NCBI GenBank assembly: GCA_022600955.1
Contig: JAHZJK010000024.1
Span: 58,003 to 122,002 of the forward strand
Direction: 5' to 3'
Source of the DNA: Gammaproteobacteria bacterium
Lineage (GTDB): Bacteria; Pseudomonadota; Gammaproteobacteria; Steroidobacterales; Woeseiaceae
Length of the DNA: 64,000 nucleotides
Under the pieces are notes generated by a model. It searched no databases. It had not been told where the DNA came from and saw only the letters and a list, made by a program, of their open reading frames with translations. Below, one piece after another: positions 21,944-48,400 of this stretch. Position numbers and translations under genes: made by a program. Each line of letters starts with the position of its first letter. The first letter of the stretch is position 1.

Positions 21944-22019
<76 letters not shown>

Positions 22020-24626: not shown

Positions 24627-25868
24627 ATGACGAAGGACCTGCTGATACGAGACCTCGACACCGAAGACCTAGACTGGATCGGTCAGTCGATTCCCGTCGG
24701 TTCCACTCAGGCTGAATTTCTCCGGGACATTGTCCGTCAGGCAAGGGTAGAGTCTTTTCAGCCTTCACTGTTTGACGCGACATCTAAACCGAAGACGATC
24801 CATGGCTACATGCCGTTTAAGTTCATTGACTTGTTTGCTGGCATTGGCGGGTTTCGATCTGCTATGACTGCCCTCGGTGGCGAGTGCGTCTTCACAAGCG
24901 AGTGGGATAAATACGCCGTAAAAACTTATCGTGAGTGGTATGGCGATGACGACATCAATACCGAGGACATTCGCGAAGTTGATGCGGCAACAGCTATTCC
25001 AGATCACGACATACTATGTGCGGGATTCCCCTGCCAGCCGTTTTCATTGGCAGGTGTTTCCAAAAAGAATTCACTTGGCAGGTTGCACGGATTTGAAGAT
25101 CTCGATCAGGGAAATCTGTTTTTTGCGATCATGAAGATTGTCGACGCGAAGCGCCCACCTGTTCTCATGCTAGAGAATGTGAAAAACCTAAGGTCACACG
25201 ACAAAGGCAACACGTGGAAGGTTATTCGCGAATCAATTGAAAGTCGCGGTTACGTCGTTCACGAAAAAGTGATCGATGCGCAAGCATGGGTACCACAGCA
25301 TCGCGAGCGAATTTTCATCGTCTGTTTCGATTCGAATGTATTCGGGAGCAAAGAGCAAATAGGGTTCGAGTATCCAGAGCCCCCAACCCCAGAAGCGCCG
25401 AAGCTCGGTAGCATCCTTCACGCTAGGGCGCCTGATCGCAAATACATGCTTTCCGACAAGCTGTGGAAATATCTTCAGGACTACGCGGCGAAGCATCGTG
25501 CAAAAGGAAACGGATTCGGATACAGCCGTTTCGGGAAAGATGACGTTGCGCGAACAATGAGCGCTCGCTATCACAAGGATGGATCTGAGATCCTAATCAA
25601 GCAGCGTGGCTGGAAAAACCCTAGGAGGCTGACACCTGAAGAGGCGCTGGGTCTGATGGGGTTTCAAAAACGCTACTCGACGCTGTTTGGTCATGAAGAT
25701 GGATTTCCGCAAGTAGTATCGGACACGCAAGCCTACCGCCAATTCGGCAACTCGGTTGTTCCACTGGTTGTTGAGGCTGTCGGTTCGAAAGTGGTCGATG
25801 CAATGGCGCGCGTATTCTTGCGTACGAACACCGGTTGCTTATTAAAAGGCCGAACAGTAGCGGCGTAG
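24627..25868 (+). CDS. C5-cytosine DNA methyltransferase with N-terminal RHH-like domain
   Basis: FKFIDLFAGIGGFRSA (motif I), DILCAGFPCQPFSLAG (motif IV), LMLENVKNL (motif VI), QFGNSVVPLVVEAV (motif X). N-terminal MTKDLLIRDLDTEDLDWIGQSIPVGSTQAEFLRDIVRQARVE fits a ribbon-helix-helix pattern. Confidence 0.92.
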   Translation: MTKDLLIRDLDTEDLDWIGQSIPVGSTQAEFLRDIVRQARVESFQPSLFDATSKPKTIHGYMPFKFIDLFAGIGGFRSAMTALGGECVFTSEWDKYAVKTYREWYGDDDINTEDIREVDAATAIPDHDILCAGFPCQPFSLAGVSKKNSLGRLHGFEDLDQGNLFFAIMKIVDAKRPPVLMLENVKNLRSHDKGNTWKVIRESIESRGYVVHEKVIDAQAWVPQHRERIFIVCFDSNVFGSKEQIGFEYPEPPTPEAPKLGSILHARAPDRKYMLSDKLWKYLQDYAAKHRAKGNGFGYSRFGKDDVARTMSARYHKDGSEILIKQRGWKNPRRLTPEEALGLMGFQKRYSTLFGHEDGFPQVVSDTQAYRQFGNSVVPLVVEAVGSKVVDAMARVFLRTNTGCLLKGRTVAA

Positions 25869-25870
25869 CC

Positions 25871-26287
25871 GTGGACGTACACGACAAAGAAACCAGGTCC
25901 TACAACATGTCGCGGATTAAAGGCCGCGACACCAAGCCAGAAATACTGGTACGACAGGAGTGCCATAGGCAAGGCCTGCGCTTTCGTCTACACAGGAAAG
26001 ATCTTCCTGGAAAGCCAGATCTTGTATTTTCAAAATACAAGACTGTAATTTTCGTACACGGCTGCTATTGGCACTCGCACGATTGTAAGTACGGGGCAGT
26101 CGTTCCAAAAACCAATACGGAGTTCTGGCAAACAAAGCGCTCGGCCACTGTCGACAGAGACGAGCGCAAGTCACTCGAGCTTCAGTACTGCGGCTGGCGT
26201 GTACTAGTGTATTGGGAGTGCGAAGTCCGAGACCGCGATGCACTTGCAGAGAGGATCCAGAACGATTTCCTACGGCAAAGTGACTAG
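25871..26287 (+). CDS. vsr: Very short patch repair endonuclease Vsr
   Basis: GTG start: VDVHDKETRSYNMSRIKGRDTKPEILVRQ...GKPDLVFSKYKTVIFVHGCYWHSHDCKYGAVVPKTNTEFWQTK, canonical Vsr motifs. Confidence 0.93.
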   Translation: MDVHDKETRSYNMSRIKGRDTKPEILVRQECHRQGLRFRLHRKDLPGKPDLVFSKYKTVIFVHGCYWHSHDCKYGAVVPKTNTEFWQTKRSATVDRDERKSLELQYCGWRVLVYWECEVRDRDALAERIQNDFLRQSD

Positions 26288-27631
26288 CTGAACTTCTCTG
26301 TAGAGATGGCTAAGGCACTCGGCGAGCCTTGACGTGTTGATACGCCATTGTGGCCGTACCTTAGCCTCGCCACTGGCGTAAATCGTATGCGCGGGATCGA
26401 AATACACTTCACCAGAATGGATCGTTCGCAACAATCGCCAGATATCTGTTCCCTCACAGATGAATACATCAGCGAGGAATCTGTAATCGTGATCATGGCC
26501 ATCGTCACCTTCGTGCGGACGCCGTTCGCGGGCGACGTAAGCCGCGGATGAATGTTTCTTGTTCCAACTATCGGCGAGCTTCTTGAAGCTCCACCCGGAG
26601 ATGACCTCTCCAGTTTCAACTTTCCGTATTGAAACTTGGATATCATTGGTATCCGCCGAAAAAGAACCCGCCGCTGCATCATAGCCATCGACAGTCAGTT
26701 CGCAGCCAGTTGCGGGGTTCACTCGCCCAGACCGATGGACGCCTGTGAATACGGTTCTTCCATCGTTTGCTTGCCCAGGTCGACCATACTTCGCCATGAA
26801 ATCTCGAAAAGGATTGTCACCGCCATATCCGGTATCGGCGGTTGGGGTCATGAGCGAAATTTTGCCCTTTGAGTACGTCTTGATCTCGTAGCCATGCTTG
26901 TCCGGCGCATGATCAGCATTGGCGGGAACTCCAAGTATCGCCTCAAGAGTGTAGCCACCGCCTTGGTTGCCCCGAAATGGAATCGGCCCGCTTTCGCGTG
27001 GCTTCAAGATTATCGATGGATGCCAACCTGCATGATGCGCAGCAGCGAGGTCACTCAGCAGTAATTCCGTTGGACTAGAACCAGCCGCGCCGAGGAAAGT
27101 GAGAACGCGTAACGTTGGAAGCGCTCGGAGTTCTGGAAGGTCAGGAAATACACTAACAAGCTCGTCTTCCGCTTCGGTAATTACGAACCCGATAGTTCGG
27201 CCGGTATTCGATATTCCTAGCAGCAGAATTCGAACACCGTATTGTGCTTGGTTGTTGCGGCGCAGTGCATCTGGTGGCTCATCGCACCCGCGCATGAATC
27301 CAGAGAATCGAATCTCAGGATACTGAAAGTAGTCGATGATTCGCGCGTGCGGCGCGTCGTGAAGACTGCCATTTCTGTCCAGCCATGCCAGATCGATCTG
27401 CGCCTCGACCTTCGGCTTACCTTGTGACGACTTCCGTTTCTCTGTGCTCTCGCTTGGCGACCTCGCAACGATGGCTGCCGGGAAAAGGTTAGTCGCGCCA
27501 TCAAGCCCGCTGCCTAAGTAAATCTGGTTCTTCTCGTTATCTTGTTTCGGCGCCAACTGTTTGACATACAGCTGCGTCACGCCGTGTCGCGCGAAGAGGT
27601 CTTGTAACTCATCAACGGATCGAACTCCCAC
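26270..27631 (-). CDS. Type II restriction endonuclease, MvaI/BcnI-like
   Basis: GGYTLEAILGVPANADHAPDKHGYEIKTYSKGKISLMTPTADTGYGG matches the MvaI/BcnI-type nuclease core (LExxLGIxxN...PDxxGxEIKT); convergent with vsr; long N-terminal extension. Confidence 0.75.
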   Translation of the reverse strand: MGVRSVDELQDLFARHGVTQLYVKQLAPKQDNEKNQIYLGSGLDGATNLFPAAIVARSPSESTEKRKSSQGKPKVEAQIDLAWLDRNGSLHDAPHARIIDYFQYPEIRFSGFMRGCDEPPDALRRNNQAQYGVRILLLGISNTGRTIGFVITEAEDELVSVFPDLPELRALPTLRVLTFLGAAGSSPTELLLSDLAAAHHAGWHPSIILKPRESGPIPFRGNQGGGYTLEAILGVPANADHAPDKHGYEIKTYSKGKISLMTPTADTGYGGDNPFRDFMAKYGRPGQANDGRTVFTGVHRSGRVNPATGCELTVDGYDAAAGSFSADTNDIQVSIRKVETGEVISGWSFKKLADSWNKKHSSAAYVARERRPHEGDDGHDHDYRFLADVFICEGTDIWRLLRTIHSGEVYFDPAHTIYASGEAKVRPQWRINTSRLAECLSHLYREVQLVTLP

Positions 27632-27810
27632 GTCGGGATCATGCCCGAGATATACAGTCCACTCCAGAAAGCGAGAGTCTTACGGTGATCTATTTCACTA
27701 GCAAGACGCAACATTCCCGTAGCTTCGAAAGTCGCTGTATGAGGCTACTACCGATGATAGTTGACACATTACGAAAATATGTGAAATAAGATCGCGAAAT
27801 TAGTCGGCTA

Positions 27811-27845
27811 AGATATGTAATATATCTAACATATATTGAATATAT
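27811..27845 (+). promoter_or_regulatory. Tandem AT-rich palindromes, candidate operator of GHKL operon
   Basis: AGATAT-gtaat-ATATCT (27811-27827) and ATATATT-g-AATATAT (27831-27845), both perfect, upstream of the small ORF at 27898. Confidence 0.45.
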
Positions 27846-27897
27846 TTCTCATAAGTGTTAATTTTCCTTCACAAGATTCGCAATGCAGGTATGTTCC

Positions 27898-28149
27898 ATG
27901 GCCTCAAAGAGAACAAAATTCGTTCAGCTCGCTGAAAAGCGTGTCAACAACACGCTAAATAATTTGAGACTAATAGGAAATCTCTCAAATTCAGCAAGCT
28001 ACGAATACACCCAGAAGGATGTCGACAAGATCTTTCGCGCCGTAACGCGAGCAGTGAATGATGCTAGGTCACGCTTTAACTCTACCGGTGGCGGTTCCAG
28101 CACTACCTTTCGTCTTGATGAGTCGACGAACCGGGGAGAAGACAAATGA
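27898..28149 (+). CDS. Small hypothetical protein, first gene of GHKL operon
   Basis: MASKRTKFVQLAEKRVNNTLNNLRLIGNLSNSASYEYTQKDVDKIFRAVTRAVNDARSRF; stop overlaps the start of the GHKL gene. Confidence 0.7.
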   Translation: MASKRTKFVQLAEKRVNNTLNNLRLIGNLSNSASYEYTQKDVDKIFRAVTRAVNDARSRFNSTGGGSSTTFRLDESTNRGEDK

Positions 28150-30041
28150 GCGTCCAATGGATTTTTGATCCTGCTCCGCCCAGCGGCAAAAGGCGCGGAG
28201 GAAACAGCGCCGAATATGGTTTCGAAGGTCAGATCGACACGTTGGTGCGCGAAGTCGTACAGAATTCCTTGGACGCTCGAATTTCCGACGCCAAACCTGT
28301 GGATGTCGTCTTTCGATTAGTTGAGCTGGACGGTGACTATTTTGGCGCATTCATGTCAGCAATCTCATGGGACAGCCTAATCGACAACCTTTTAGCAGTT
28401 CCTGACGAACGAGGAGGTCATTCAATCAGAGCGGCAGTTGACCTGCTCGAACAAAACCAAAGCGTGCGGCTACTCGTTGTCGAGGATCGCGGTACCAAAG
28501 GACTGAAAGGAGCGGAACAGAGACAGAGCGACACGGAAAAGAATAGCTACTGCGCATTGGTGAGAGACGAACTGTATAGCGACAAGGATGACCCGGATGC
28601 CGGAGGAAGCTTCGGCTTGGGGAAATCATTACTCTGGGCGTATTCGTCAATAAAGGTCGTCCTATTCTCGTCCTCTCCCGAAGGGGGGAAAGACGGAGAC
28701 GCCGGACTTCGGTTTGTGGGTCGGACATCATTGCCTTACCACGAAACTGAAGAAGACGGCCCTGTGACTGGCGATGGGTGGCTCGGTGTAGAAAGAAACT
28801 TGGAAACCGGATGGAAACGAGCGGAATCAATTTGGGGGGAATCCGCTAGTCAAATCACAACCGATTGCTCATGTTCGAGGAAAGATGACGACCTTGGGCT
28901 GAGCGCGGTAATTGTTGGTCTGTCGGAGCCTGGTGAGCGTGACAGAGAGCCAGAGGAGGTCGCCGATTCCATAGTCGAAGCCGGGCTCGAATCATTCTGG
29001 CCCGCAATTGTGAGTGACCAACTAACCATAACAGTACAAATCGAACGAAACGAAGAAGTCCAAAGAAAGTCAGTAGTTGATCCGGAAAATACCGAGCGCT
29101 ACCGGCCGGCCGTGACCTTGTATAAGGACTTTCATGCCGGCAATGTCGAAGAACAAGAACGGCTCGAAACCGCTGGCGGTCAAGCCATCAGGTGGGTCGA
29201 CATCGAAATCCCAGAAAGAACGGGGAAGGATCCGCACCCTGCGGAAACTGGTCACGTTCCCGTACTCGTCCGACTGCTGAATGACGATGAAGGTTTTGAT
29301 GAGATCGCCGATAGGGTCTTTCGATTCAGGCGGCCCGGAATGGTCGTGAGAAAAAGCCAGCAGTCCAATCTTTCAATTACAGCGCGCCCTTACGTTGCGG
29401 TTGTCCCAGCTGGGCTCGCCGGCGGAGATACGGAGACATTTAGAAGAATCGAGACCTTTCTGCGAGCGGCCGAGCCGCCTGAACACAACGAATGGACACA
29501 CAATACGCGCAGCATCAAAGAGTCTTACCAGACATGGGGCTGCAGGAAGAAACTGCAGTCCTTCGACTACGCAGTTATTGAGGCAATTCGGTCTCTAATA
29601 GCAAAACCCGAAAAGAAAGGTGGGGAACTGCCGAAAGCAATCATGAGACATCTTAGATTCGGGCATTCAGGCGGTGGGGGTCAACAGCGATTCATTTCGA
29701 TTACACAGGAACGCGCATCACCAGAAGATGGGTCCTGGAAATTCAGCGCGCGATGTCGCCGAATACGTCCGGAAGACAAGCCGTGGACAATACTGGTGAA
29801 ATTTCATTACGCGGTCGACGGTGGTGGAAGCGACGACCTGCATGCGATTAAAGAAATCAGCGCGGCTAACGCGTCCAATATTTCGGTCGTAAACGGTGTG
29901 GGTTGCCTCGAGATTCCTGCGGACGTGAACAAAGTGGAATTCACGGGGACAACCGATTCAACCAAACTACCCGCTATAGGAACACGCTCCGCGGTCCGTT
30001 TGCGGGTTGACGGAAAATCCGGAGTAAAAAACGATGCCTGA
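28146..30041 (+). CDS. GHKL (Hsp90/MORC-like) ATPase
   Basis: GHKL motifs: LVREVVQNSLDAR (N box), VRLLVVEDRGTKGLKG (G1), GGSFGLGKSLLW (G2). Overlaps both neighbours. Confidence 0.8.
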   Translation: MSVQWIFDPAPPSGKRRGGNSAEYGFEGQIDTLVREVVQNSLDARISDAKPVDVVFRLVELDGDYFGAFMSAISWDSLIDNLLAVPDERGGHSIRAAVDLLEQNQSVRLLVVEDRGTKGLKGAEQRQSDTEKNSYCALVRDELYSDKDDPDAGGSFGLGKSLLWAYSSIKVVLFSSSPEGGKDGDAGLRFVGRTSLPYHETEEDGPVTGDGWLGVERNLETGWKRAESIWGESASQITTDCSCSRKDDDLGLSAVIVGLSEPGERDREPEEVADSIVEAGLESFWPAIVSDQLTITVQIERNEEVQRKSVVDPENTERYRPAVTLYKDFHAGNVEEQERLETAGGQAIRWVDIEIPERTGKDPHPAETGHVPVLVRLLNDDEGFDEIADRVFRFRRPGMVVRKSQQSNLSITARPYVAVVPAGLAGGDTETFRRIETFLRAAEPPEHNEWTHNTRSIKESYQTWGCRKKLQSFDYAVIEAIRSLIAKPEKKGGELPKAIMRHLRFGHSGGGGQQRFISITQERASPEDGSWKFSARCRRIRPEDKPWTILVKFHYAVDGGGSDDLHAIKEISAANASNISVVNGVGCLEIPADVNKVEFTGTTDSTKLPAIGTRSAVRLRVDGKSGVKNDA

Positions 30042-31020
30042 CGCCACCTTCCTTCCTTACAAAACCGCACCGGATTCCTTAGCAGTCAATATCGTAGGTG
30101 TTTCAATCGACGGTGAATCGAAGGATATCGGCGAGATAGTGGACCATTCGGCGTATCAAATTCAGATTAGTGGTGTGGACGATTGGGTCCGTACCGATCT
30201 GGAGATCGAAGTGTCGGACCCGAACGCAGAATTGCCACCAGTTCTCAGCCACGAAGAGAGCGTTGACGACGCAATCGATGTCTATGTGACTCTGAAAGGC
30301 GGCAAAGGCCGTACACGATCCGGCTTGAAGCTGACGCCCAGTGGAAACAGTGCATGGAGCGGCAACATACAGATTGTGCGCGACAATCAACTTGGCTCGT
30401 TGGATCTCGAGGCGGTAGCTGTAAGGCGGACGAGAGGTGAACCGGACATTGGACTGGCAAGCTGGGTCGGTGAGCGGGTCGCATGGTCAAAGCGATGGAT
30501 GACATACATCGACGACAAGCCGCTGATGCCGGGAGGCGCTATTTCAGGAGAGTGGCGAGATTTCGAGAATGATGACAGCGAGGAATTAAGGCAGCGCAGT
30601 GATTGCGCTTGGTATCTCAATCTTTCGGACCCCGATAAGCCCAAACTGTATCTAAACGAGGGAATAGACCGCCTCAAGGGGGCGCTTGAAGCTCCAGCGG
30701 TAAGAGGTCGACCTGCAGCAGTTCGAGACGTAATTGCCCAGTCAATTCTTCAATCCGCGCTCATCGCGCTATGTGTCGAGGCAATATCCGGAGCAGATGA
30801 ACCAAAGGTCGAGGATCTCGACGGCTGGCGCAAGAGCCTACTGGTTGCAATGGGTAAACTGGCAGATGACAGTCAATCACCAGAGCTGGTCGTCGAAGGC
30901 TGGCTAGAGGCCTGGCAACAGGACAGCAAGAACGTCATTGCCGGAATAACTACTGCTGTCCAACGTCACCTGGGGATGCCCGCAACCGCAACTCGCTTGG
31001 TTAGAGCGATGGAGTCCTAG
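30034..31020 (+). CDS. Hypothetical protein of GHKL operon
   Basis: 328-aa ORF overlapping the GHKL gene by 8 nt; no family recognised. Confidence 0.7.
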   Translation: MPDATFLPYKTAPDSLAVNIVGVSIDGESKDIGEIVDHSAYQIQISGVDDWVRTDLEIEVSDPNAELPPVLSHEESVDDAIDVYVTLKGGKGRTRSGLKLTPSGNSAWSGNIQIVRDNQLGSLDLEAVAVRRTRGEPDIGLASWVGERVAWSKRWMTYIDDKPLMPGGAISGEWRDFENDDSEELRQRSDCAWYLNLSDPDKPKLYLNEGIDRLKGALEAPAVRGRPAAVRDVIAQSILQSALIALCVEAISGADEPKVEDLDGWRKSLLVAMGKLADDSQSPELVVEGWLEAWQQDSKNVIAGITTAVQRHLGMPATATRLVRAMES

Positions 31021-31022
31021 CT

Positions 31023-31721
31023 ATGTCACACGTCAAGAGGATTAAAGATCACGTCGCACTTGCGTTGGACGTTGAGTTCCTTTCAGCCGATGACCCTAGT
31101 GGCTTGTTAATGCTTGACGCAGAGTCAGATCTTGAGGGCGTAGCAGCAAGAACCGACATCGCGCGGCTCGACAATTTTGTCGCTGAGACAATTAGTAGCC
31201 ACGAGAGGTATGACACGGCGATGGATAAGAATGTAGCGATCGATCTACATAAGTGTCTTGCCTTGTCGAGACGACAAGCTGCCGATCGGCGGCTCTGGGC
31301 TTGGCTGTGTTGCATAAAGTACCCAGAATTTGTCGCGTATAGGTGGAAACCAAGAGTTGCCGGGGAACACGAAGGATTAAGGTCTCCCGCTCGCTTTATT
31401 GGGGACAATGTACGAAATACGTTTGCTCGTCTATGGTGGGCGGCGGAACTCACCGTAGTCAACGGCACCGATTATTCTTTAACCGAAGAGTTGCTGGCGC
31501 TGGATCGATTTCAGGATGGCTATGAGGCGATGTTTGGACGAGCTTTTTGCCAGTATCCTGATGCACTACGCGCTTTTATCCAAACTGCCGGCCAGAAGCC
31601 GCAAAAAGTGATTCGCGAGACGTCAAAAGAGTTCTGCTATCTGATGACAACGCTTGTACTAGAGACGATGACCAGCGAGCAACTATCCGAAGTTCTCGCC
31701 GACATCAGCGAAAAAGTCTAA
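31023..31721 (+). CDS. Hypothetical protein of GHKL operon (possible DUF6339-like)
   Basis: 232-aa ORF 2 nt after the previous gene; DRRLWAWLCCIKYPEFVAYRW / RNTFARLWWAAELT recalls DUF6339 (from memory, unverified). Confidence 0.65.
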   Translation: MSHVKRIKDHVALALDVEFLSADDPSGLLMLDAESDLEGVAARTDIARLDNFVAETISSHERYDTAMDKNVAIDLHKCLALSRRQAADRRLWAWLCCIKYPEFVAYRWKPRVAGEHEGLRSPARFIGDNVRNTFARLWWAAELTVVNGTDYSLTEELLALDRFQDGYEAMFGRAFCQYPDALRAFIQTAGQKPQKVIRETSKEFCYLMTTLVLETMTSEQLSEVLADISEKV

Positions 31722-31898: not shown

Positions 31899-32105
31899 AT
31901 GTACCAGCCCGCTAAGAAGTACCTAACAGCCGCCGACGCAGCAAGCTACGTTGGCTACACAACCAACACGCTTGCGCAGTACCGTTGCCGCAGGTTAGGT
32001 CCCAGCTACATGAAGGCGAGGGGCCGCGTGCTCTATGCAGTCGAAGACTTGGATAACTGGGTAGAGAGTCACGCCAGGATCGAAATTCCATCAGCACAAG
32101 CGTAG
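31899..32105 (+). CDS. AlpA/MerR-like HTH protein, putative excisionase or regulator
   Basis: 68 aa: KKYLTAADAASYVGYTTNTLAQYRCRRLGPSYMKARGRVLYAVEDLDNWVESH, typical excisionase-family HTH. Confidence 0.8.
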   Translation: MYQPAKKYLTAADAASYVGYTTNTLAQYRCRRLGPSYMKARGRVLYAVEDLDNWVESHARIEIPSAQA

Positions 32106-32375: not shown

Positions 32376-34403
32376 ATGACCTCTTATACCAAAGACCATC
32401 CAATACCCCTCAAAGCGCTTGCCGCCATCAAGCCGCAATTCAATCCACTCCGGCCACTGTTCAAAGCGGGATGGCCTACAGTTCCGCTGCACAGATCGCA
32501 CACCGTCAAGACTATGCAAGGCAAAACGATACGCCTTGGCAAAGTGCCACTCGAGTCCAATTGGCCGAGCCGCAGGGCACAAGACGAAGAACAGGCGCGA
32601 ATCAGCTGCGAAGTGAGTGGCCACAATACTGGCATCGCCCTCGGTCGCAAGATCGGCGACCAGTACCTTTGTGCGTACGACATAGATCAACAAAACCTGC
32701 CGAACGGCCTCGACGACTTCCTGAAGCTCGTCCCCGCAATAGCAAAGCAGCTGGATGTCGAGCTCGAAGATCTCGTGATTCACCAGTCCGGTAACGACGG
32801 CTTGCATATCTTCTTCCTCTCAAGCGAACCCGACTTGCAGGGCCATATTGAAATCGACGGCATCAAGGTCGAGCTGAAGTCTAAAGGTCAGCAAGTCGTT
32901 GCGCCCGGCTCTGTCCATCCCGACAGTGGCCGGCTTTATCAGATCCATCCTGGGTCCGCGAAGCACGAAGAGCTGCCAAGTGCGCCGCAAAGCCTTATCG
33001 AGCAATTCAGGAAGCCGTCGTGTACGCACACTGACAATCAGATCATTCCGCCAAGCCGTCTCGGATGGATGGCGGAGCAAATCGCTTTAGCGGTTTACGA
33101 TGGCATTGATGTTTTTGAGGGATATGACGATTGGATACGGGGCGGCATGGCCTTCCATTCGGCATCAGGCGGCGAGGATTACGGTCTGGAGGCATGGATC
33201 GCGTGTTCGCATGAAGGGGAGCACGACCACTGTCTCCATAAGTGGCGCAGCTTTGGCGATGGTGCCGTCACTGAGAAAACGCTGAACCACTATCTTGCGA
33301 ATGCAGGCGTGAAGCCGAGCGATGCTCCGAAGCTCACCGCTGATGAGGTCGCCGAGTACATCGCGCATGATTTTGCCGACTTATCTGACGATGAGATCGC
33401 AGCACCTAAACTCAAAAAGCCAAAGAGGAAGCTCTACAGCCTGAATGAGCTCGTCAATCTGCCGGAACCTGAGTGGCTCGTAGATCACGCGATTCCCAAA
33501 AACGGACTGGTTGTCTTGTACGGCCCGCCGAAGTCTGCCAAGACGTTTCTAGCTCTTGATATGGCACTCAGCATGGGCTCTGGGCAGGAGCAGATGCACG
33601 GTTTCGCAATGAAACCCGGTCGTGTGCTCTATGTGCTCGCCGAAGGCGGCGCATCGATGATGGGTAATCGTGCTCGCGCATGGATGCAAGTGAAAGCGGT
33701 TGACGAAGCCGACCTCCAGGTATTCCCGTTCGGTATTACTCTCTCAAGCCGCAAGTCTGTTGATGAGTTGCTTGATCTGGCTGGTACTATATGGGATCTA
33801 GTTGTCGTCGATACATTGGCGCGTTGTATGGATGGCGATGAGAACTCCGCGAAAGATATGGCTCTGGCTATCAAAGGTGGCGATTACATCCGCGAAAAAA
33901 CCGGTGCTGCCGTTCTGCTCGTTCATCACAGTGGCAAGGATCAGAGCAAGGGATTGAGGGGGTCGACCGCTTTGCTGGGCGCCGTCGATGCAACGATCAA
34001 GATGAGGCCACAAGGTACTATGGGCGGGTTCGAGCTGTCGGTGCCAGAGTTGCGTCATGGTGAGCCACCTGAACCGAAGTGGCTCCGTCTCCAATCTACT
34101 GGTGATTCCGCTGTGTTGGTCGCAGGGACTGCACCAGAAAAAACAAAGACGGGATCAGCTGCCGAAATTCTCGAATTCATTGCGCGGATGATCGCAGACG
34201 GAACCTCACGCAAAGAGGTCGCTGACGAGATCGCAATTCAGTTTGGCTTCACGGACAGGACAGCAAGGCGGCGGATCGTCAATTACATTCCCTCTGGCAA
34301 AGAGAACGCAGCCCAATCAGACGGAATGGCAATTTGGCGTGAAGCTGACATCACTTCGAGTAGCCCAAAAGCAGAAGTCTTGCGTGTTCAGACAACGTTC
34401 TAG
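32376..34403 (+). CDS. Bifunctional Prim-Pol / RepA-like AAA replication protein
   Basis: Prim-Pol motifs CAYDIDQQN, GNDGLHIFF, VAPGSVHPDSGRLYQI; Walker A LYGPPKSAKTFLALDMALSMGSG; LLVHHSGKDQSKGLRGSTALLGAVD as in RepA/DnaB-like ATPases. Confidence 0.85.
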   Translation: MTSYTKDHPIPLKALAAIKPQFNPLRPLFKAGWPTVPLHRSHTVKTMQGKTIRLGKVPLESNWPSRRAQDEEQARISCEVSGHNTGIALGRKIGDQYLCAYDIDQQNLPNGLDDFLKLVPAIAKQLDVELEDLVIHQSGNDGLHIFFLSSEPDLQGHIEIDGIKVELKSKGQQVVAPGSVHPDSGRLYQIHPGSAKHEELPSAPQSLIEQFRKPSCTHTDNQIIPPSRLGWMAEQIALAVYDGIDVFEGYDDWIRGGMAFHSASGGEDYGLEAWIACSHEGEHDHCLHKWRSFGDGAVTEKTLNHYLANAGVKPSDAPKLTADEVAEYIAHDFADLSDDEIAAPKLKKPKRKLYSLNELVNLPEPEWLVDHAIPKNGLVVLYGPPKSAKTFLALDMALSMGSGQEQMHGFAMKPGRVLYVLAEGGASMMGNRARAWMQVKAVDEADLQVFPFGITLSSRKSVDELLDLAGTIWDLVVVDTLARCMDGDENSAKDMALAIKGGDYIREKTGAAVLLVHHSGKDQSKGLRGSTALLGAVDATIKMRPQGTMGGFELSVPELRHGEPPEPKWLRLQSTGDSAVLVAGTAPEKTKTGSAAEILEFIARMIADGTSRKEVADEIAIQFGFTDRTARRRIVNYIPSGKENAAQSDGMAIWREADITSSSPKAEVLRVQTTF

Positions 34404-34413
34404 CGAACCACTA

Positions 34414-35319
34414 TTAGCTTGGATCTCCTTCCATAGTTTCTGAATGCCTCTTCTCAGCCATAGCGATTTGGCGAACCATCGAGTAGTGCAGTTCTTTGAA
34501 TGCTCGCTCAGCTCTGTCTATGTCCATCTCGATCAGACCGTCGTCGTCCGTCGTCGGATTTCCCAACAGACCGAAAATTAAAGTCTCGGCAAGCTCTGGT
34601 TCCTCCACGGAGCGATAGCGTTGGATTTCCCATTCGTTCCAAATGTCGTCCGAGTCGTCGAGATGTTCCAATTCACCACGCACCGTTACGACTCTTATGA
34701 AACCTAGCTTTAGTGGGCTAACCAAAAGGCACAAAACACCAACATCAAGATTCTCCCTGATCTCTTCTGGGGTCCTTGCGCCTTGGCCGCAATGCGGACA
34801 GCCCTTGCCTTCTGCCACTTCATTGGGCACGGTCCGCCACTCATGGCCTTGGCTACATCGGAAGTTCGACTTTCCGTACTTGCTTCGCACGTGGCTCACA
34901 AGAACGATACCGCGTCCGATCAGCCGTTTCTTCATCCAAGCGTTATAAGCATAGACGTGATCTGGTTGAGGCTTCGACTTCGGTCGTACCCCAACCTTCC
35001 TAGCAGCGCTCAACCCTGCCTGAACTGTTTCCCACGACATCGTCTTGATCTCGACCCTGCTTCTAAATGGGAATAGTGAAAATGGTGTAGCGGCCCAGAA
35101 TGCCGATTCGGCCAAATATGGATCAGGAACTGCATGATATTCCTTAAGCACCCACGTCTGTCCGGTTTCCTTGACCTCGAGGCCAGCTGCTTTGGTGAAA
35201 TCGCTGTTGTGTTCGGCTAATCGTTTCTTGGGCTCGCGCGTGGTTATCCCGATCTTGTACAGGTCGGGATCAGACGGATGTTCAAGCACATAAATGTAGC
35301 CCGGCTTAATAGAGTTCAT
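34414..35319 (-). CDS. GIY-YIG (T5orf172-like) protein with zinc ribbon
   Basis: GYIYVLEHPSDPDLYKIGITTREPKKRLAEHNS (GIY-YIG core); FRCSQGHEWRTVPNEVAEGKGCPHCG (Zn ribbon). Confidence 0.75.
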   Translation of the reverse strand: MNSIKPGYIYVLEHPSDPDLYKIGITTREPKKRLAEHNSDFTKAAGLEVKETGQTWVLKEYHAVPDPYLAESAFWAATPFSLFPFRSRVEIKTMSWETVQAGLSAARKVGVRPKSKPQPDHVYAYNAWMKKRLIGRGIVLVSHVRSKYGKSNFRCSQGHEWRTVPNEVAEGKGCPHCGQGARTPEEIRENLDVGVLCLLVSPLKLGFIRVVTVRGELEHLDDSDDIWNEWEIQRYRSVEEPELAETLIFGLLGNPTTDDDGLIEMDIDRAERAFKELHYSMVRQIAMAEKRHSETMEGDPS

Positions 35320-35352
35320 ATACGCCCATTACTCTATAACGAATCCTCGCAA

Positions 35353-35570
35353 CGGACACATGCGTCTTTATAGAGACGCAATGTCGTGTCCAATTGCATG
35401 CCACTCATCGGACAATCAACGGACAATGATTTGTAACGTATTGATTGGAAAGAGCGGACACTGTCCGGCGGCTTGGGTCCAATGTGTCCAATGCATCGGA
35501 CAGAAGCATCGGACATGACTATCTCCGAGGCAACTCGCGACCGAAGCACTCCCCCCCCTTATTCTGTCCG
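35353..35570 (+). repeat. Iteron-like cluster of CGGACA/TGTCCG, candidate replication origin
   Basis: CGGACA at 35353, 35409, 35420, 35455, 35497, 35510; TGTCCG at 35462, 35565; TGTCCAAT at 35387, 35485; hairpin TGCGTCT-ttatag-AGACGCA at 35361-35380. Confidence 0.65.
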
Positions 35571-35856
35571 AAACTGTGCCCAGCACTGTGCTCGTTTGAA
35601 GGAAAAACTCCCAGAGGGCTTATGTTCTTTGCCTTCTCAGTAGCCGACACGCGGATTGAGCATTAGGTTGCGTGCCTTCGGTCTCACCTGGCACTCAGTA
35701 TCGGCTTCGGAGTCTTCGACCCTGATATCCCAGCACAGAGATCAATGAATGCGACCCGGGTGGGCTGGGTATCCCATTGAATCGCATACTAAGACTTGAC
35801 GGTCAGAGTGCTCGAGAGTACTCTAAGAGGCCTCGCGAGCACTCGGACTGTACATT

Positions 35857-36264
35857 ATGAAGATTGAAATATCGAACCAAACGTTCAAAAGGCTTCAGCA
35901 GCATGCTGTGCCACTAAAAGATTCACCGGAGGACGTGATTGTAAAATTACTCAGCTCTTTTGAGACCAGTGGACGGGCGAAGCAAGAAAAGCCCATTCTA
36001 CTGGACGAGTATCGCCCAGAGAGCATGAGGTCAATTCCACGACGGGTGTCAGGATTTGCTGGCGAGCTATGGGAGCTGGTCATTAAACCGCTCCCAGAAG
36101 AATTTTCGCTTCCCGATGTCTACCGCCACCTCGACCCTGTTCGAGAAAGAAGGCCCCACGTCAAGGAGCTCGAAGCATCGGCTAGGGCCGCCCTTCAAAC
36201 ACTCAGAGATGCAGGATACATAGAGTTCATGGACAACCGCGGGCAGTACCGGCGTCTGCAGTAG
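35857..36264 (+). CDS. SeqA-N-like / DpnI-C-like winged-helix protein
   Basis: N-term MKIEISNQTFKRLQQHAVPLKDSPEDVIVKLL (SeqA-N-like); C-term FSLPDVYRHLDPVRERRPHVKELEASARAALQTLRDAGYIEFMDNRGQYRRL (DpnI/Dam-replacing HTH-like). Confidence 0.55.
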   Translation: MKIEISNQTFKRLQQHAVPLKDSPEDVIVKLLSSFETSGRAKQEKPILLDEYRPESMRSIPRRVSGFAGELWELVIKPLPEEFSLPDVYRHLDPVRERRPHVKELEASARAALQTLRDAGYIEFMDNRGQYRRLQ

Positions 36265-40640: not shown

Positions 40641-41771
40641 TTAATCGAAGAGTACGTAAGCCTCGGCCGCAACTAGATTTTCAATAGCCTCGGCGTATTG
40701 TCGTACATGCTCGACCAACGCATCCGGATGCGTGTAGACCTGACCGATTCCAGGAACAGCATGCGTCATCAAGAGTCGTTGCTCCATAAACGGCACGCCC
40801 GCCTTGATTGCGAGTGTTGTCCAGTTATGGCGGAGTTGATGGGTTCCGTACCCAAACCTGCGGTACCACACTGTGCTCAGCGGCCTTGAAACAGGATTGC
40901 CGGGCCATAGCCATTCGCTTGCCGAGGGCGCATCAAGATACCGTTCAAACAAGTGGGCGAGCCTCGGCCCAATCGGTAATGTCGCGCCGTTCTTCATCGT
41001 TTTCACGTGTGTTAACCGGATAGTACGCGCCTCTAGATCTATGTCTTGCCGACGCATGGCTCTAATCGATGAGGCTCTAGCGGCGGTCAAGAGTGACATC
41101 GTCCATATAGTCCGCCACATCATTTGCAATTCAACGACGTTCTTGGCGAACTCTTCCAGGTCTACTAATTCGGGTTCACGCTTGGGATTTGACGGAATCA
41201 CCACGAACTGACACGGGTTCTCCTTCATTCCTTCATCCATACGCATAGCGTGCGATAGCGTTAGACGTAGAACCCGGAGCGCACCGCTCGCCATAGTCTT
41301 GCCACGTTTCTGCAAGCGCGACTTAAGAGTACGAACGTCATCACGAGTAATGTCGCGGGGGTGAAGGTTGCGGTAGGGATAGAGCGTATTGCGTTTCTTG
41401 TTAGTCCAGTGACGCCGATAGTCATCTTCTGTCCGTTCGGCTAGGGAGCGTTCGCAGATGTGATCTTCAATGACATCAATCATCGTCAAATTCTTTGCGT
41501 TCTTGGTCTCCGCGTTAGGATCAATACCCGAACGAACTTGGGTCTGAGCTAGTGCCGCTGCCGAACGCGCCTCTTTCAGCGTCATGTCCCCTTGCTTTCC
41601 GAGGGTAACCCTAATGGTACGTACGAACCTGCCATTCCTACGAAGGTCAGTTTGATATGCCCAGGTCGTAGGTCCTTTCCTTCCGAGAGCTAGCAGCCCC
41701 TTGAAGCGGTCGTCGCGAAGAATCTTACTGGGTTGGAGCTTGGCAGCAGTAGTCTCTGTAAGTTTAGTCAT
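40641..41771 (-). CDS. int: Tyrosine recombinase/integrase
   Basis: Catalytic core: LLTAARASSIRAMRRQDID (R), YGTHQLRHNWTTLAIKAGVPFMEQRLLMTHAVPGIGQVYTHPD (HxLRH...H...Y). Confidence 0.92.
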   Translation of the reverse strand: MTKLTETTAAKLQPSKILRDDRFKGLLALGRKGPTTWAYQTDLRRNGRFVRTIRVTLGKQGDMTLKEARSAAALAQTQVRSGIDPNAETKNAKNLTMIDVIEDHICERSLAERTEDDYRRHWTNKKRNTLYPYRNLHPRDITRDDVRTLKSRLQKRGKTMASGALRVLRLTLSHAMRMDEGMKENPCQFVVIPSNPKREPELVDLEEFAKNVVELQMMWRTIWTMSLLTAARASSIRAMRRQDIDLEARTIRLTHVKTMKNGATLPIGPRLAHLFERYLDAPSASEWLWPGNPVSRPLSTVWYRRFGYGTHQLRHNWTTLAIKAGVPFMEQRLLMTHAVPGIGQVYTHPDALVEHVRQYAEAIENLVAAEAYVLFD

Positions 41772-41898: not shown

Positions 41899-41920
41899 GA
41901 GCAGCTGAAAATCCGCGTGT
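41899..41920 (+). other. Decayed tRNA-Phe fragment / distal att site
   Basis: GAGCAG-CTGAAAATCCGCGTGT equals tRNA-Phe GAGCAG-[cgga]-CTGAAAATCCGCGTGT with a 4-nt deletion; 134 nt upstream of the integrase start. Confidence 0.7.
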
Positions 41921-42100: not shown

Positions 42101-44779
42101 ATGGATCTGAAGAAGGTTGAAGCCGCTTTTCACCACGCGCTTTCGTTACAGGGTAGTGCGCGTGAAACGTATCTCGAGAGACTGCACAAAGAAGATGCCG
42201 ACCTTGCCAGCGCGGTCGGCGATCTTGTCAGAAATACGTGCGGCGGTGATGATGCGTTCCTGCGAGCGCCGATAGAAGCCTCTGCGGCGGAGCTGAGCGA
42301 AACTGCAGTTGATCCGTGGCTAGGCAGGGAACTAGGCCCTTATCGGATCGTTGAACGGATCGCCGCCGGCGGCATGGGCGCCGTGTTTCTCGCCGAGCGC
42401 TCCGATGATCAGTTCGAGCAGCGGGTCGCGATAAAAATCATGACATCGCAGCTGCTGGACGACAATGCGATTGAACGATTCAAGGCCGAGCGACAAATAC
42501 TCGCAAGCCTGCAGCATCCTTATATCGCGCAGCTTTTGGATGGCGGCACTACGGATGAGGGGTTGCCGTATCTCGTAATGGAACACATCGATGGTTCACC
42601 GATCGATATCCACTGCGACGAGCATGCCTTGACGGTACCTGAGCGACTGGCGCTTTTCCGAAAGACGACGCAGGCGATAGACTTCGCCCACCGTAGCCTG
42701 ATCGTGCACCGAGACATTAAGCCATCGAATATTCTCGTGACCGGCGACGGCACGCCGAAACTACTGGATTTCGGAATAGCAAAACTCCTGGGGCCAACGT
42801 CGCGGCAGGTGATGGGGGGGCAAACGCAAGTCGGTCGTCGTGTCCTGACGCTCGAATACGCGAGTCCAGAGCAAGTTCGAGCGGAAAGGGTGACGACGGC
42901 GACCGATGTCTATTCGCTGGGTGTTTTGCTGTATCAATTGCTCACAGGTCAGTCGCCCTACGACTTTTCCGACAATAGTGGTGCCAGTATCGAACACCAG
43001 ATTCTGGATACAGCGCCCGAAAAACCCAGTAGCAAGGTCACCGGTGCCTATAAAACGGCGGACTCTATCGGTCGAACGCGGTCGACGACGCTGAGCAGTT
43101 TACGACGGCGTCTTTCGGGCGACGTCGACAACATCGTGCTTATGGCGCTGCAGAAAGATCCCGAGCGACGCTACAAGACAGCCAGTGACTTCTCTGCTGA
43201 TATTGGCCGTTACCTCAATGACAAACCCGTGCGGGCGCGGGGTGACAACTGGGTCTACAAGGGTCGTAAGTTCGTTGTGCGAAACGCAAAAGCGCTGTCG
43301 CTAACCGCACTGGTCCTGGTGGGCGCGGTCGGTCTTGTGAGCTACTACACCTTGCAGCTCGCCGACGAGCGTGACAAAGCAAACCTGGCGGCAGCCGAGT
43401 CAGAGCAGGTGGCGGATTTTCTCACGGACCTTTTTGCGAGTTCATCACCGCACGCGGCGAAAGGTCAGGACATAACAGCCATCGACTTGCTGGAGCAAGG
43501 CAGTGAACAGATTAATGAGTTGAATGACCAACCGCGGCTACAGGCAGCGCTCAGTCGTATTATGGCCGGTAGCTATACTGCGCTTGGTGACACAGCACGT
43601 TCAATTCCGATGTTGCAAAAGGCAATAGACGCACAGGAATTGATGCAACCTCGCGACGAAATTGCGATTGCCTATGCATTGCATGACCTTGCCGAAGCAT
43701 TTCGGCAGCGCGGGCAGCTGGACGAGGCGGAAGATCGAATGCGCCGTGCACTAACGTACCGCATCAACAATTTCGGGCCAGAGCACGGTTTGGTCGGCTA
43801 CACCTATGCTCGCCTCGGCGTAATACTGCAGGATGGGCGGAAGTCGGAACAGGCATTGGCGCTGCAACGTCGCGGATTGGAGGTCATGATCGGATACGGG
43901 CATGGTGACAACTTCGCCGCAATCGATATTCGCGGCAACATGGGCAACGCGTTGGCGAGCCTCGGGCGTTACGATGAAGCCAGACCGTTGCTGGAAAAGA
44001 CGGTCGAAATGTCCGAGCGGGTAGAAGGTCAAATGGCACCACGCACGATAATCAGAAGAAGCAATCTCGGTAGAGCGCTGCTGGTTCTTGGCGACTATCA
44101 ATCGGCCGATGAAATCTTTGCCGATGGCATTGAGCGGGGCGCTGCAGTCTGGCCGGAGAACTACTATGTCATTGCTTCGATGACAGCATTACGTGGCACG
44201 GCGCTGCGCAAGATGGGCCGACTGGATGAGTCGCTTCAACAATACGAGCGAGCTGCCGAAATCACACGGTCTCGGGTCGGTGAAGGCGATATCCGGTACG
44301 TCGATCGATTGTACGGGTTCGGTCGAATCTATACGGCATTGGAACGACACGACGACGCGGAGCTTGCATACCTGCGTGCAATCGAACTCGCCACCGAATT
44401 GCAGGGCGAAAACGGGTATAAGGCAACGCTGACGCGTGTCATGCTTGGCCAACACTACGTCATACGTGGGAGAGCCGAAGCGGCGATAGCGGTCTTGCGT
44501 CAAGCCATCAATTCATTGGAGCTGCTCAACGTAAATTACAAGGTCGCGCTTCATCAGGCACTGGGTGAGGCACTTAGCCTTCGCGGGCGTTACGAGGAGG
44601 CGGAGACTCTATTGCTGGATGCGTTAGCGACGAAAGAAGCGTCGACTGGATCCTATCCGGAGACGCTGTTGCCCAGTTTGAATGCACTAGAGTCGCACTA
44701 CCAGCGAACGGGCGACTTAAATGAGTCACAGCGTTACGCCGTGCGAGTGCAAGCGATTACACCCTCGTTAGGGCACTAG
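42101..44779 (+). CDS. Ser/Thr protein kinase with C-terminal TPR domain
   Basis: YRIVERIAAGGMGAVFLAERSDDQFEQRVAIKIM, HRDIKPSNILV, LLDFGIAKLL, YASPEQVRAERVTTATDVYSLGVLLYQLLTGQSPY; TM at ALSLTALVLVGAVGLVSYYTL, then TPRs. Confidence 0.95.
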   Translation: MDLKKVEAAFHHALSLQGSARETYLERLHKEDADLASAVGDLVRNTCGGDDAFLRAPIEASAAELSETAVDPWLGRELGPYRIVERIAAGGMGAVFLAERSDDQFEQRVAIKIMTSQLLDDNAIERFKAERQILASLQHPYIAQLLDGGTTDEGLPYLVMEHIDGSPIDIHCDEHALTVPERLALFRKTTQAIDFAHRSLIVHRDIKPSNILVTGDGTPKLLDFGIAKLLGPTSRQVMGGQTQVGRRVLTLEYASPEQVRAERVTTATDVYSLGVLLYQLLTGQSPYDFSDNSGASIEHQILDTAPEKPSSKVTGAYKTADSIGRTRSTTLSSLRRRLSGDVDNIVLMALQKDPERRYKTASDFSADIGRYLNDKPVRARGDNWVYKGRKFVVRNAKALSLTALVLVGAVGLVSYYTLQLADERDKANLAAAESEQVADFLTDLFASSSPHAAKGQDITAIDLLEQGSEQINELNDQPRLQAALSRIMAGSYTALGDTARSIPMLQKAIDAQELMQPRDEIAIAYALHDLAEAFRQRGQLDEAEDRMRRALTYRINNFGPEHGLVGYTYARLGVILQDGRKSEQALALQRRGLEVMIGYGHGDNFAAIDIRGNMGNALASLGRYDEARPLLEKTVEMSERVEGQMAPRTIIRRSNLGRALLVLGDYQSADEIFADGIERGAAVWPENYYVIASMTALRGTALRKMGRLDESLQQYERAAEITRSRVGEGDIRYVDRLYGFGRIYTALERHDDAELAYLRAIELATELQGENGYKATLTRVMLGQHYVIRGRAEAAIAVLRQAINSLELLNVNYKVALHQALGEALSLRGRYEEAETLLLDALATKEASTGSYPETLLPSLNALESHYQRTGDLNESQRYAVRVQAITPSLGH

Positions 44780-45333
44780 TTCTTTGCCAACGCATCTTTG
44801 AGCCAGGCTCGGGCCAACCGTAAGTCCCGATCGATCGTACTACTGGACAAGCCAGTTACCGCTTCCATCTCGCGAAACGACAGTCCACCGAAATACTGCA
44901 GCTCAATAAGATTGGCTTTTCTCTCATCGAGTGCAGCAAGGCCTTGCAGGGCCTCCTCAAGGTTGAGCAAATCAGCTTCGGCATCTGCGCCGACATTGGC
45001 CTCGTCGAGTGTCACCTTCACAGCACCGCCACCGCGTTTCTCGGCGCGCCGCGCGTTGGCGTGATTCACCAGCAAGCGCCGCATCATGCGTGCTGCCAGT
45101 GAGTAGAAATGTGCGCGATCTTGCCAATCGACATCAACGTCGATGAGCTTGACGAAAGCCTCGTGAACCAGTGCGGTGGGCTGCAATGTGTGCCCGCTGT
45201 TCTCTGAACGGAACAATCGCTTTGCCATTCGCATGAGCTCGTCATAGACGATCGGCGTCAGCGCCGCCTCCGCGTCCTTGTCGCCAGAACTCCACTGATT
45301 TAACAGTTGCGTTATTTGGGGCGGCTGAGCCAT
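44776..45333 (-). CDS. ECF-type RNA polymerase sigma factor
   Basis: ITQLLNQWSSGDKDAEAALTPIVYDELMRMAKRLFRSE...LQPTALVHEAFVKLID...LIELQYFGGLSFREMEAVTGLSSSTIDRDLRLARAWL: sigma2/sigma4 signature. Confidence 0.9.
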   Translation of the reverse strand: MAQPPQITQLLNQWSSGDKDAEAALTPIVYDELMRMAKRLFRSENSGHTLQPTALVHEAFVKLIDVDVDWQDRAHFYSLAARMMRRLLVNHANARRAEKRGGGAVKVTLDEANVGADAEADLLNLEEALQGLAALDERKANLIELQYFGGLSFREMEAVTGLSSSTIDRDLRLARAWLKDALAKN

Positions 45334-45438
45334 TTGTCGATACTAGCACCAGTTTTATCGTGATTTTTGGGCAAAACCGCTAGCGCTTCAGGCTCCTCCG
45401 GGTGAAGGCATTCGTTCGTGCATTTTCGACTGGTTCTA

Positions 45439-45460
45439 TCGATGTGCATTCGATGTGCGT
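45439..45460 (+). repeat. 11-bp tandem repeat upstream of giant surface protein
   Basis: TCGATGTGCAT|TCGATGTGCGT followed by TCGAA. Confidence 0.5.
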
Positions 45461-45486
45461 TCGAACCCACACCAGGAGTAGCAGGC

Positions 45487-48400
45487 ATGCAGGAAATCAG
45501 ACGTCTTGGCCACAGCGCAAACCGCTGGGCGACAAACACCATGACCATCATTTGCGCCGCCGCATTTACGCTGACGGCAGGCCAGGTGGTCGCAGACTCA
45601 CCATTCGACGCAACGCCTGACGACAACCTTGCTGTTGCTGCCACCCAGGGTGCGTTAATGGGTACACATGTCGGCGGTACTATTGGCGGAGTTGCAGCGC
45701 CGAGCTACGTGGGTACCGGATTCGAAATCGCCGCACTCAGCGCGGACCTCGCACTGAAGAATACGCCGCCTGTGATGGAGTTGCCGAGCGATTTTTCCAA
45801 ATTCCCGAACGCTGCCGCAACCGGAAGCGTCACTGGCTACCAGTGCATTTACAAATTTGCTGGCACAATCCGCAAAGGCCAAGACATTACGGATGACGGA
45901 TTTCGCGGTGGTGTTGAGGAAAGCTTTGCCAGCATTTTCTACATTCCGTTTGATCCCCTCGACAAAGTGTATGCCGATCTTGGCACACCCGCGGTATACC
46001 ATCCGCAGGCTGACGTGCGTGTGCGTGCGATCAACCCTTATCTCGGCGAGTTTGCGTACCGCGACTTTGATGATGAACAGGCGCGCCTGTTGCAGAAGCG
46101 GCCTGAGTTTCCGGCCGGTCGCCATACAATTCAATGGGAAGCCAACACGTCCATGAATCTGATCATGGACTTCACACTGCCGTCGTTGTTGATACCGCTG
46201 GGAATCGCCGCGGAAACCTATGTGGGTAAGAGAATCGCCAGCTCGACGCGAGCATCGTTCATTGAGAATGCTGTTGGCACGGCTGCCGAGGCGGGTTTGA
46301 TAGCGGCCGATGTTTCCGGTGCCGCAGCGAAAACGCAGTGGTACGAGGACACGCTGTTTTTTACCGCGGCGAATCGCGGCGCGCAAACGCTCACGGTGTG
46401 GGATTCCAGTCGGCCGTATTTTCGCGACGTAGAAACGAACGCGACCAATATTCGACAACAGTCTATTGAGCTTCAGGCAACCGACTTTGGCGGCGTACGC
46501 CTTGGCCGTGTCGAAACAGCATTGCGGGAAAAGTTCGAAGCCGTCGATGATTGCGGCGAAGAATTCACGATAAGCACAGATGCGGCTTCTTCACGCCTGT
46601 TCACAATCGGTGATGGACCGCACGAGTTGGTTTGGCAGGCGCGAGAGGTCGAGGGCGGACCCTATCATCCGGACATCGCCGAGACATCGACGCAAATTCG
46701 CGAAGGCGAAAATTTCGTCACTCTCTTGACGCAGTTGATCCGTGTCGTCGACACGCAGGCGCCTCTGCTATTGGTACCCGACAGCTTTGCTCAGGAACGA
46801 ACGAGCGCCTGGAATCTTGGCGCAGAATCGTTCCCGCTCGGTCGTCCGCGGATCACGGACTTGGCCGACCCGGCACCCGGCTTCAACAATAATGCGCCAG
46901 ATATGTTGCAGGTCGGCCCTGCTGGTTCCCGTTACGAAATTCAATGGGAAGCGTTTGACAATCAAGGCAACGTTACCGTCGCACCTCCGGAGGACCCGGA
47001 TCGCTATACACAGATCGTGACCTTAAAGCCGCCAGGCATCAATCGACCCCCGACAGCGGAAATCACGAGCGCCACGGCGATAGCGTCGACGGCCGTTGAA
47101 ATTCTTCTTACCGGAACAGATACGGAGGAGCCACGGATTGGTGGCCGTTTCGATCCGCTGGCCTTCGAAATAGAGACATTGCCGCTGGCGGGCCAGTTCG
47201 AAGCACCGTTGCTGCCGTTTTTCATAGATGACTTTCGCCTTACTCCGGTTGGAGAACGCGAAGACAACGACGAGATCACGCGGGTGAGCCCACTGAAGCA
47301 TCTGGCGGATCAATTCCGACTACTTGACGCTGTAGATCGTGGCGCATTTCTTGATCTTGAAATCTGCAATGCACAACCTGGTAGCACGAGTGACACTGAG
47401 TTCGGCGGTGTAATACCAGTGGACTTCGTCTATCGACCAAGTTTTGTCTACGTCGATGATCAGAATAACTACTACTTGCGCGATCATTTCTGGGTCTGCG
47501 GCGAAGGTACAAACGGCGATTTCGACGCGGAGCCGGTGTTATCAAAATTGCCCCGCCTGTCGAAATGGAGTGATGACGGGGAGATGCTTGCGATGCGACC
47601 TCTGTATCCAACGGCGGATCCCGCGCACGACAACAGCAATCTCGATGCGACGTTCTGGCCCAGCGACCGCTTCTCTTTTGAAGAAGGGCGCGTCTGGATC
47701 GGACTGGGCAACGAACCATTTATTAATCAGGGTAACGGCGAGCCGGTGGTTCGCGACTACTTTAGCTATGACGACGACCTGGACGGACATCGCTCTCACG
47801 GGCGAACGGTACTGGAACCTCCGCTCGCGTCCTTTCTCCTGGGTATCGCAGCCGATACCTCACGCGACTTGGTCTACGAGTTGTATCCGTCGGGGTTGCC
47901 GCGTAGCAATACCGTCCGCCGCCGGGATACGTTGCGCGTCAGCCGTTTTCGCGACGACATGCAGGTCGGCGATCCGCGCGAAGAAATCGGCACCTTCTTG
48001 TTCGGCAGTCGTGCGGCTATGACGGGAAGAGACGTGAAAGTAGACAGTGAAGGCAATGTTTACATAGTGGATTGGCAGAACCATCGTGTTCACAAGATTG
48101 CGCCGACGGTGCTGGATGAGAATGGCGAATGGCAACTTGGCGAATACATCGGTTGGATGGGGCGCTGCAGCCAGAACAACCTGAATGATGATGGCGTGCC
48201 ATACAGCGCATGCGACGAGGCCAATGAAGTGTCTTATGGCTATGCCTGCGACGATTTGAAGTGCCAGGGCTATGCAGGCGGGGGGCCGTTCCCGCCGCCG
48301 CCCGCACTGTCTGGCGATCAGCCGGGACAGTTCGAGACCCCGAACAGTATCGCAATCGGGCCCGGCGATATTCTCTACGTTGCCGATACCGGAAACTCTC

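Follow-up and report, generated by a model that had tools for sequence, protein, structure and literature searches.

The window analyzed here, a 64,000-nucleotide stretch of a Gammaproteobacteria bacterium (Woeseiaceae), holds an integrated element of about 20 kb that extends from the anticodon loop of a tRNA-Phe gene (21975) to a repeat of that sequence (41905-41920), and inside which G+C drops to about 0.47-0.54 from about 0.58. Its integration and replication genes, together with the features of a non-coding region inside it, are collected in Table 1. The cargo in 24627-31721 includes a C5 methyltransferase, an MvaI/BcnI-type endonuclease on the opposite strand, and the candidate-defense PADLOC matches PDC-M33A and PDC-M33C (DUF6339). 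Just outside the element, a 2724-aa open frame (45418-53592) adjoins genes for an ECF sigma factor (44776-45333, - strand) and a TPR Ser/Thr kinase (42101-44779). Extra, near-identical 3′ parts of tRNA-Phe, from the anticodon loop onward, occur in many genomes of the genus, which suggests that this tRNA gene (21944-22019) is a common integration site there.

Table 1. Positions, in window coordinates, of the features discussed in the text.
Feature	Position	Strand	Description
Left attachment core CTGAAAATCCGCGTGT	21975-21990	+	In tRNA-Phe (21944-22019); begins at the anticodon loop
AlpA/excisionase-like HTH_17 protein	31899-32105	+	Conserved in sister element
Prim-Pol + PriCT_2 + AAA_25 (RepA-like helicase) protein	32376-34403	+	675 aa; domain matches
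T5orf172/GIY-YIG nuclease-like gene	34414-35319	-	Zinc-finger match; between Prim-Pol gene and array; absent from sister element
Iteron-like array	35353-35570	both	8 exact CGGACA and 3 TTGGAC variants; counts, shuffles, genome pattern search
Exact CGGACA sites	35353, 35409, 35420, 35455, 35497, 35510	+	
Exact CGGACA sites	35462-35467, 35565-35570	-	
TTGGAC variants	35387-35392, 35476-35481, 35485-35490	-	
Hairpin	35361-35380		8 bp including a terminal T-G pair; loop TATA; left array edge; z -5.8
AT-rich stretch, candidate melting site	35422-35454		About 70% AT; holds the intergenic 30-mers richest in AT
Conserved non-coding block	35534-35704		About 170 bp, right of array; AACTGTGCCCA, TTGCCTTC and TTCGGTCTCACC at conserved spacing
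Tyrosine integrase	40641-41771	-	58% identical to sister-element integrase
Right attachment core	41905-41920	+	Same 16 bp as CTGAAAATCCGCGTGT; just outside integrase gene

The initial annotation described eight exact copies of CGGACA or its complement TGTCCG in about 218 nt, and a recount returned the same eight within 35353-35570, a span of 218 nt. The finer features that it listed were all located: the pair of copies spaced 11 nt apart (35409/35420), the CGGACA-c-TGTCCG palindrome (35455-35467), two copies of the variant GTGTCCAAT (35386-35394 and 35484-35492), and a hairpin, given as 7 bp, at 35361-35380. A third variant site, GGTCCAAT at 35476-35483, had been overlooked; with three TTGGAC(A/C) variants the array comes to 11 sites, for which the alignment consensus is CATYGGACA. 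The claimed excess over chance was borne out, as 0.21 CGGACA are expected in 35320-35570 and at least eight occurred in 0 of 2000 dinucleotide shuffles. When all hexamers were compared, CGGACA formed the densest cluster in the window (8 in 220 nt versus 5 for the runner-up). The array is also the sole locus in the 3.86 Mb genome with three same-strand CGGACA at gaps of 4-60, a search in which the reversed control pattern gave one match per strand. This region thus has several copies of a repeat motif, above chance and near an initiator gene, as is characteristic of iteron origins. The sites are of mixed orientation and unevenly spaced, with one 11-nt and one 13-nt step as the only short same-strand steps between exact copies.

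Four sites lie to the left and seven to the right of the AT-rich stretch at about 35422-35454, so that a candidate unwinding stretch falls between iterons as in an iteron origin. Over the intergenic region, AT content is highest in the 30-mers that begin at 35422-35425 (70% AT), and 35426-35454 ranks at the 98th percentile for AT among the 29-mers of the element. The hairpin at the left array edge is suggestive and no more, since the 20 kb element holds ten hairpins of at least 7 bp, and no DnaA box was found in the array region. As had been stated, the region is non-coding: it is intergenic, and its ORFs of 71-73 aa are unmatched in the sister element described below. Its placement about 1 kb downstream of the Prim-Pol gene was right as to distance, the stop codon being about 950 bp away, but omitted the intervening opposite-strand T5orf172/GIY-YIG gene. 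The gene starting at 35857 encodes a DpnI_C winged-helix protein, and the array region sits between divergently transcribed genes. A strong imperfect palindrome (35799-35851; hairpin z -5.1), outside the block shared with the sister, ends just 5′ of the 35857 start codon and may be the operator of the DpnI_C winged-helix gene.

A single sister element of 14.6 kb was found in tRNA-Thr of another genome of the same genus, bounded by the same type of anticodon-loop repeat (20095/34739). By all-against-all ORF comparison only three genes are common to both elements, encoding the integrase (58% identity), the AlpA-like HTH_17 protein (38%) and the Prim-Pol/RepA-like helicase (56-58%; 58% in the full alignment); all other ORF matches were opposite-strand or alternative-frame shadows of these three. 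The genes that directly border the non-coding region on its two sides are unlike in the two elements, and neither flanking gene is present in the sister. Amid these differing neighbors lies the conserved block of about 170 bp, overlooked in the initial annotation, for which local alignment with the sister scored 68 against 40 for the best of 1000 shuffled pairs. The conserved region is placed alike in both elements, beside the Prim-Pol/RepA-like gene, and is the only such non-coding region seen. A protein reading of the block was rejected because the two sequences have no protein frame in common and no shared ORF, and a tRNA-mimic reading was dropped because the sister's resemblance was no better than that of random stretches. 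In the intergenic region, CCGACACGCGGATT (14 nt, 35644-35657) is the exact reverse complement of tRNA-Phe 21980-21993 and overlaps the attachment core in that match; 1 of 60 random element stretches equaled it, and the match is possibly due to chance. On the same side of the Prim-Pol gene (12382-16998 of the sister locus), the sister carries different cargo, an Mrr/TIR-like protein and, on the opposite strand, a HEPN/RES-RES domain protein.

The initial annotation had made its reading depend on conservation of the hexamers in related elements, and here the outcome was divided: to the left of its block the sister has five CGGAC cores in 140 nt (28334-28473), a count attained in 5 of 2000 shuffles of 345 nt, but its full CGGACA copies number two rather than eight (34 of 2000 shuffles). 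CGGACAATG and CGGACAGTG occur in both elements. When the whole sister element was scanned with the window motif, three of the top 20 matches fell in the region beside the block versus 0.47 expected, a weak peak that another region equaled at the top-50 level. The sister also has a hairpin at the left array edge (9 bp, AATA loop, z -5.4), unlike 35361-35380 in sequence, and no clear equivalent of the AT-rich stretch is apparent in it. Conservation is judged here from two members, which places base-by-base resolution beyond reach. Prim-Pol and integrase searches of the family sample (107 genomes) returned these two members, and no further relatives appeared in the order, class and phylum samples at the sensitivities used. 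A scan of genome contigs for close Prim-Pol relatives gave the sister locus alone, a plasmid DNA search gave none, and neither the protein nor the two-row alignment nor a conserved DNA pattern brought up a relative among viral contigs, again at the sensitivities used; one viral match to the TTCGGTCTCACC pattern was a chance hit in an unrelated repressor-like gene, and matches within the order at three mismatches were unrelated. The family looks rare, and this family of islands appears to be undescribed.

Focusing on the candidate initiator, the helicase part of the Prim-Pol/RepA-like protein matches the RepA structures PDB 1g8y/1nlf, with 1g8y (E 2e-4) as its closest solved relative. The full-length structure model was discarded as too poor (pLDDT 39). 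The C-terminal stretch of about 90 residues was modeled with moderate confidence (pLDDT 71.5), the prediction comprising three helices plus a pair of strands; this model had no significant fold match, and many of its top non-significant matches were homeodomain or winged-helix DNA-binding folds. Because of these matches and a weak PHROG 'DNA binding protein' match to residues 591-655 (E 0.0036), the protein is, on the predicted structure, a likely candidate for the iteron binder through this C-terminal helical domain. To judge from its domains, Prim-Pol, PriCT_2 and helicase would together supply the activities that the element needs to replicate its own DNA.

In two elements, then, the array and the conserved non-coding block are linked to the integrase, HTH and Prim-Pol genes. 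We consider 35320-35740 to be the iteron-type replication origin of the ~20 kb tRNA-Phe element, in cis to the Prim-Pol/helicase, with a probability of roughly two in three. The array had already been proposed as an origin, and this reading gains support because no second such array occurs in the genome and this one encloses an AT-rich stretch, a layout like that of PICI origins, and because the non-coding region is conserved amid differing neighbor genes, with CGGAC enriched in the sister. The replication activities to be expected from the Prim-Pol/helicase domains also speak for it. Counting against it are the partial retention of the hexamers, the single relative, the irregular spacing and mixed orientation of the sites, the lack of a DnaA box in the region, the nuclease gene between rep and array, and the non-significant fold match of the C-terminal domain. 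Kept together with the integrase, HTH and initiator genes amid turnover, the non-coding region is best read, from sequence, as a putative cis element of the replication module. In the course of events that we infer, the element would be excised by its integrase, acting with the AlpA-like HTH protein; the Prim-Pol/RepA-like helicase, or a partner, would bind the CATYGGACA iterons, probably via the helix-turn-helix-like domain at the C-terminus; melting would follow in the AT stretch that separates the iteron groups; and the hexameric helicase would load and the fused Prim-Pol prime. The conserved block to the right of the array may act in helicase loading or priming.

Among the alternatives, the best placed is that the array serves operator or promoter control, with the AlpA-like HTH or the DpnI_C winged-helix protein binding the GGACA sites and controlling the divergent flanking genes. 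The divergent arrangement, the HTH protein encoded by the adjoining gene at 35857, and short, uneven, bidirectional sites of a kind that fits a cooperative regulator all agree with such a role. Against it, the sister lacks both flanking genes yet keeps the non-coding region; in addition, 11 sites over 220 nt exceed typical operators and no sigma-70-like promoter was found, and we regard this role as unlikely. Satellite P4 uses a regulatory RNA, and conservation of some 170 bp without an ORF, with long helices possible in the sequence of each element, might point to a non-coding RNA gene of regulatory or replication-control function, itself controlled by the GGACA sites. This appears less probable still: the block has no Rfam match, its fold z-scores lie close to chance for either strand of either sequence (0.14, -1.69, -1.23 and -0.70), and no clear helix is common to the two. 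Very improbable is that the array is the binding and cutting site of the directly adjoining T5orf172/GIY-YIG protein, for which the precedent is Odn, the origin-directed nuclease of phage ICP1, whose cutting depends on PLE iterons (PMC8263062), since the nuclease gene is missing from the sister and thus dispensable for core function, cutting one's own origin is self-harm unless regulated, and the RepA-like DNA-binding domain of Odn was not seen in this protein.

If the origin reading is right, these elements would form a self-replicating integrative family with defense genes in the Woeseiaceae of marine sediments, a group that has received little study. Short iterons could then serve a Prim-Pol joined to a RepA-like helicase, and the locus would offer a compact rep-ori cassette for asking whether one protein binds the origin, unwinds it and primes.

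The initial annotation had compared the locus with SaPIs and PICIs, and the comparison held for origin layout. PICI origins are described as invariably placing an AT-rich region between two sets of iterons, 3′ of rep (PMC6092414); here, too, two groups of short iterons surround an AT-rich stretch in a non-coding region downstream of the primase/replication gene, with a nuclease gene intervening. The element is likewise integrated beside its own tyrosine integrase. Gene order differs: in PICIs and SaPIs a rightward pri-rep-ori module, accompanied by a repressor and xis, has at one end an integrase that is transcribed away from it, an arrangement that was not found here, as the element's integrase lies at the opposite end on the - strand, pointing toward the + strand Prim-Pol gene, and only an AlpA-like HTH protein was identified. 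The nuclease gene between rep and array and the RepA-like (AAA_25) helicase fused to Prim-Pol are further differences. No phage-linked gene was identified; master repressor, terminase, capsid, packaging and interference genes were absent among the element proteins scanned, which represent part of its ORFs. By the features tested, the element is not a PICI or SaPI.

The origin of satellite P4 has short repeats in both orientations, a likeness to the array, and its primase and helicase families differ from those of the element, in which the helper-dependent satellite program of P4 was not seen. As in P4 alpha, a single initiator protein encoded by the element combines primase with helicase (PMC7145576). 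The archaeal plasmid pRN1 and its relatives also pair a gene for a Prim-Pol-type replication protein with a candidate origin downstream of it (PMC4234260). Unlike the array, that candidate origin is a stem-loop of about 100 nt rather than iterons, and the pRN1 helicase is of superfamily 3; such a conserved stem-loop was not found here, the two sequences having no long stem in common and fold z-scores near chance. RSF1010 has three separate replication proteins and long regular iterons, whereas the element's primase and helicase are fused and its sites are short and irregular. What the element has in common with RSF1010 and the IncQ oriV is a RepA-type hexameric helicase (PDB 1g8y) and an origin with iterons. 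Iteron origins next to primase-helicase fusions are already a known kind. Though this is less likely than not, the two elements could represent a new family of integrative elements in which a Prim-Pol/RepA-like fusion acts on a composite origin of fast-diverging array, edge hairpin and ~170-bp priming or helicase-loading block; if true, this combination of array, hairpin and block would be one undescribed for PICIs, P4 or pRN1.
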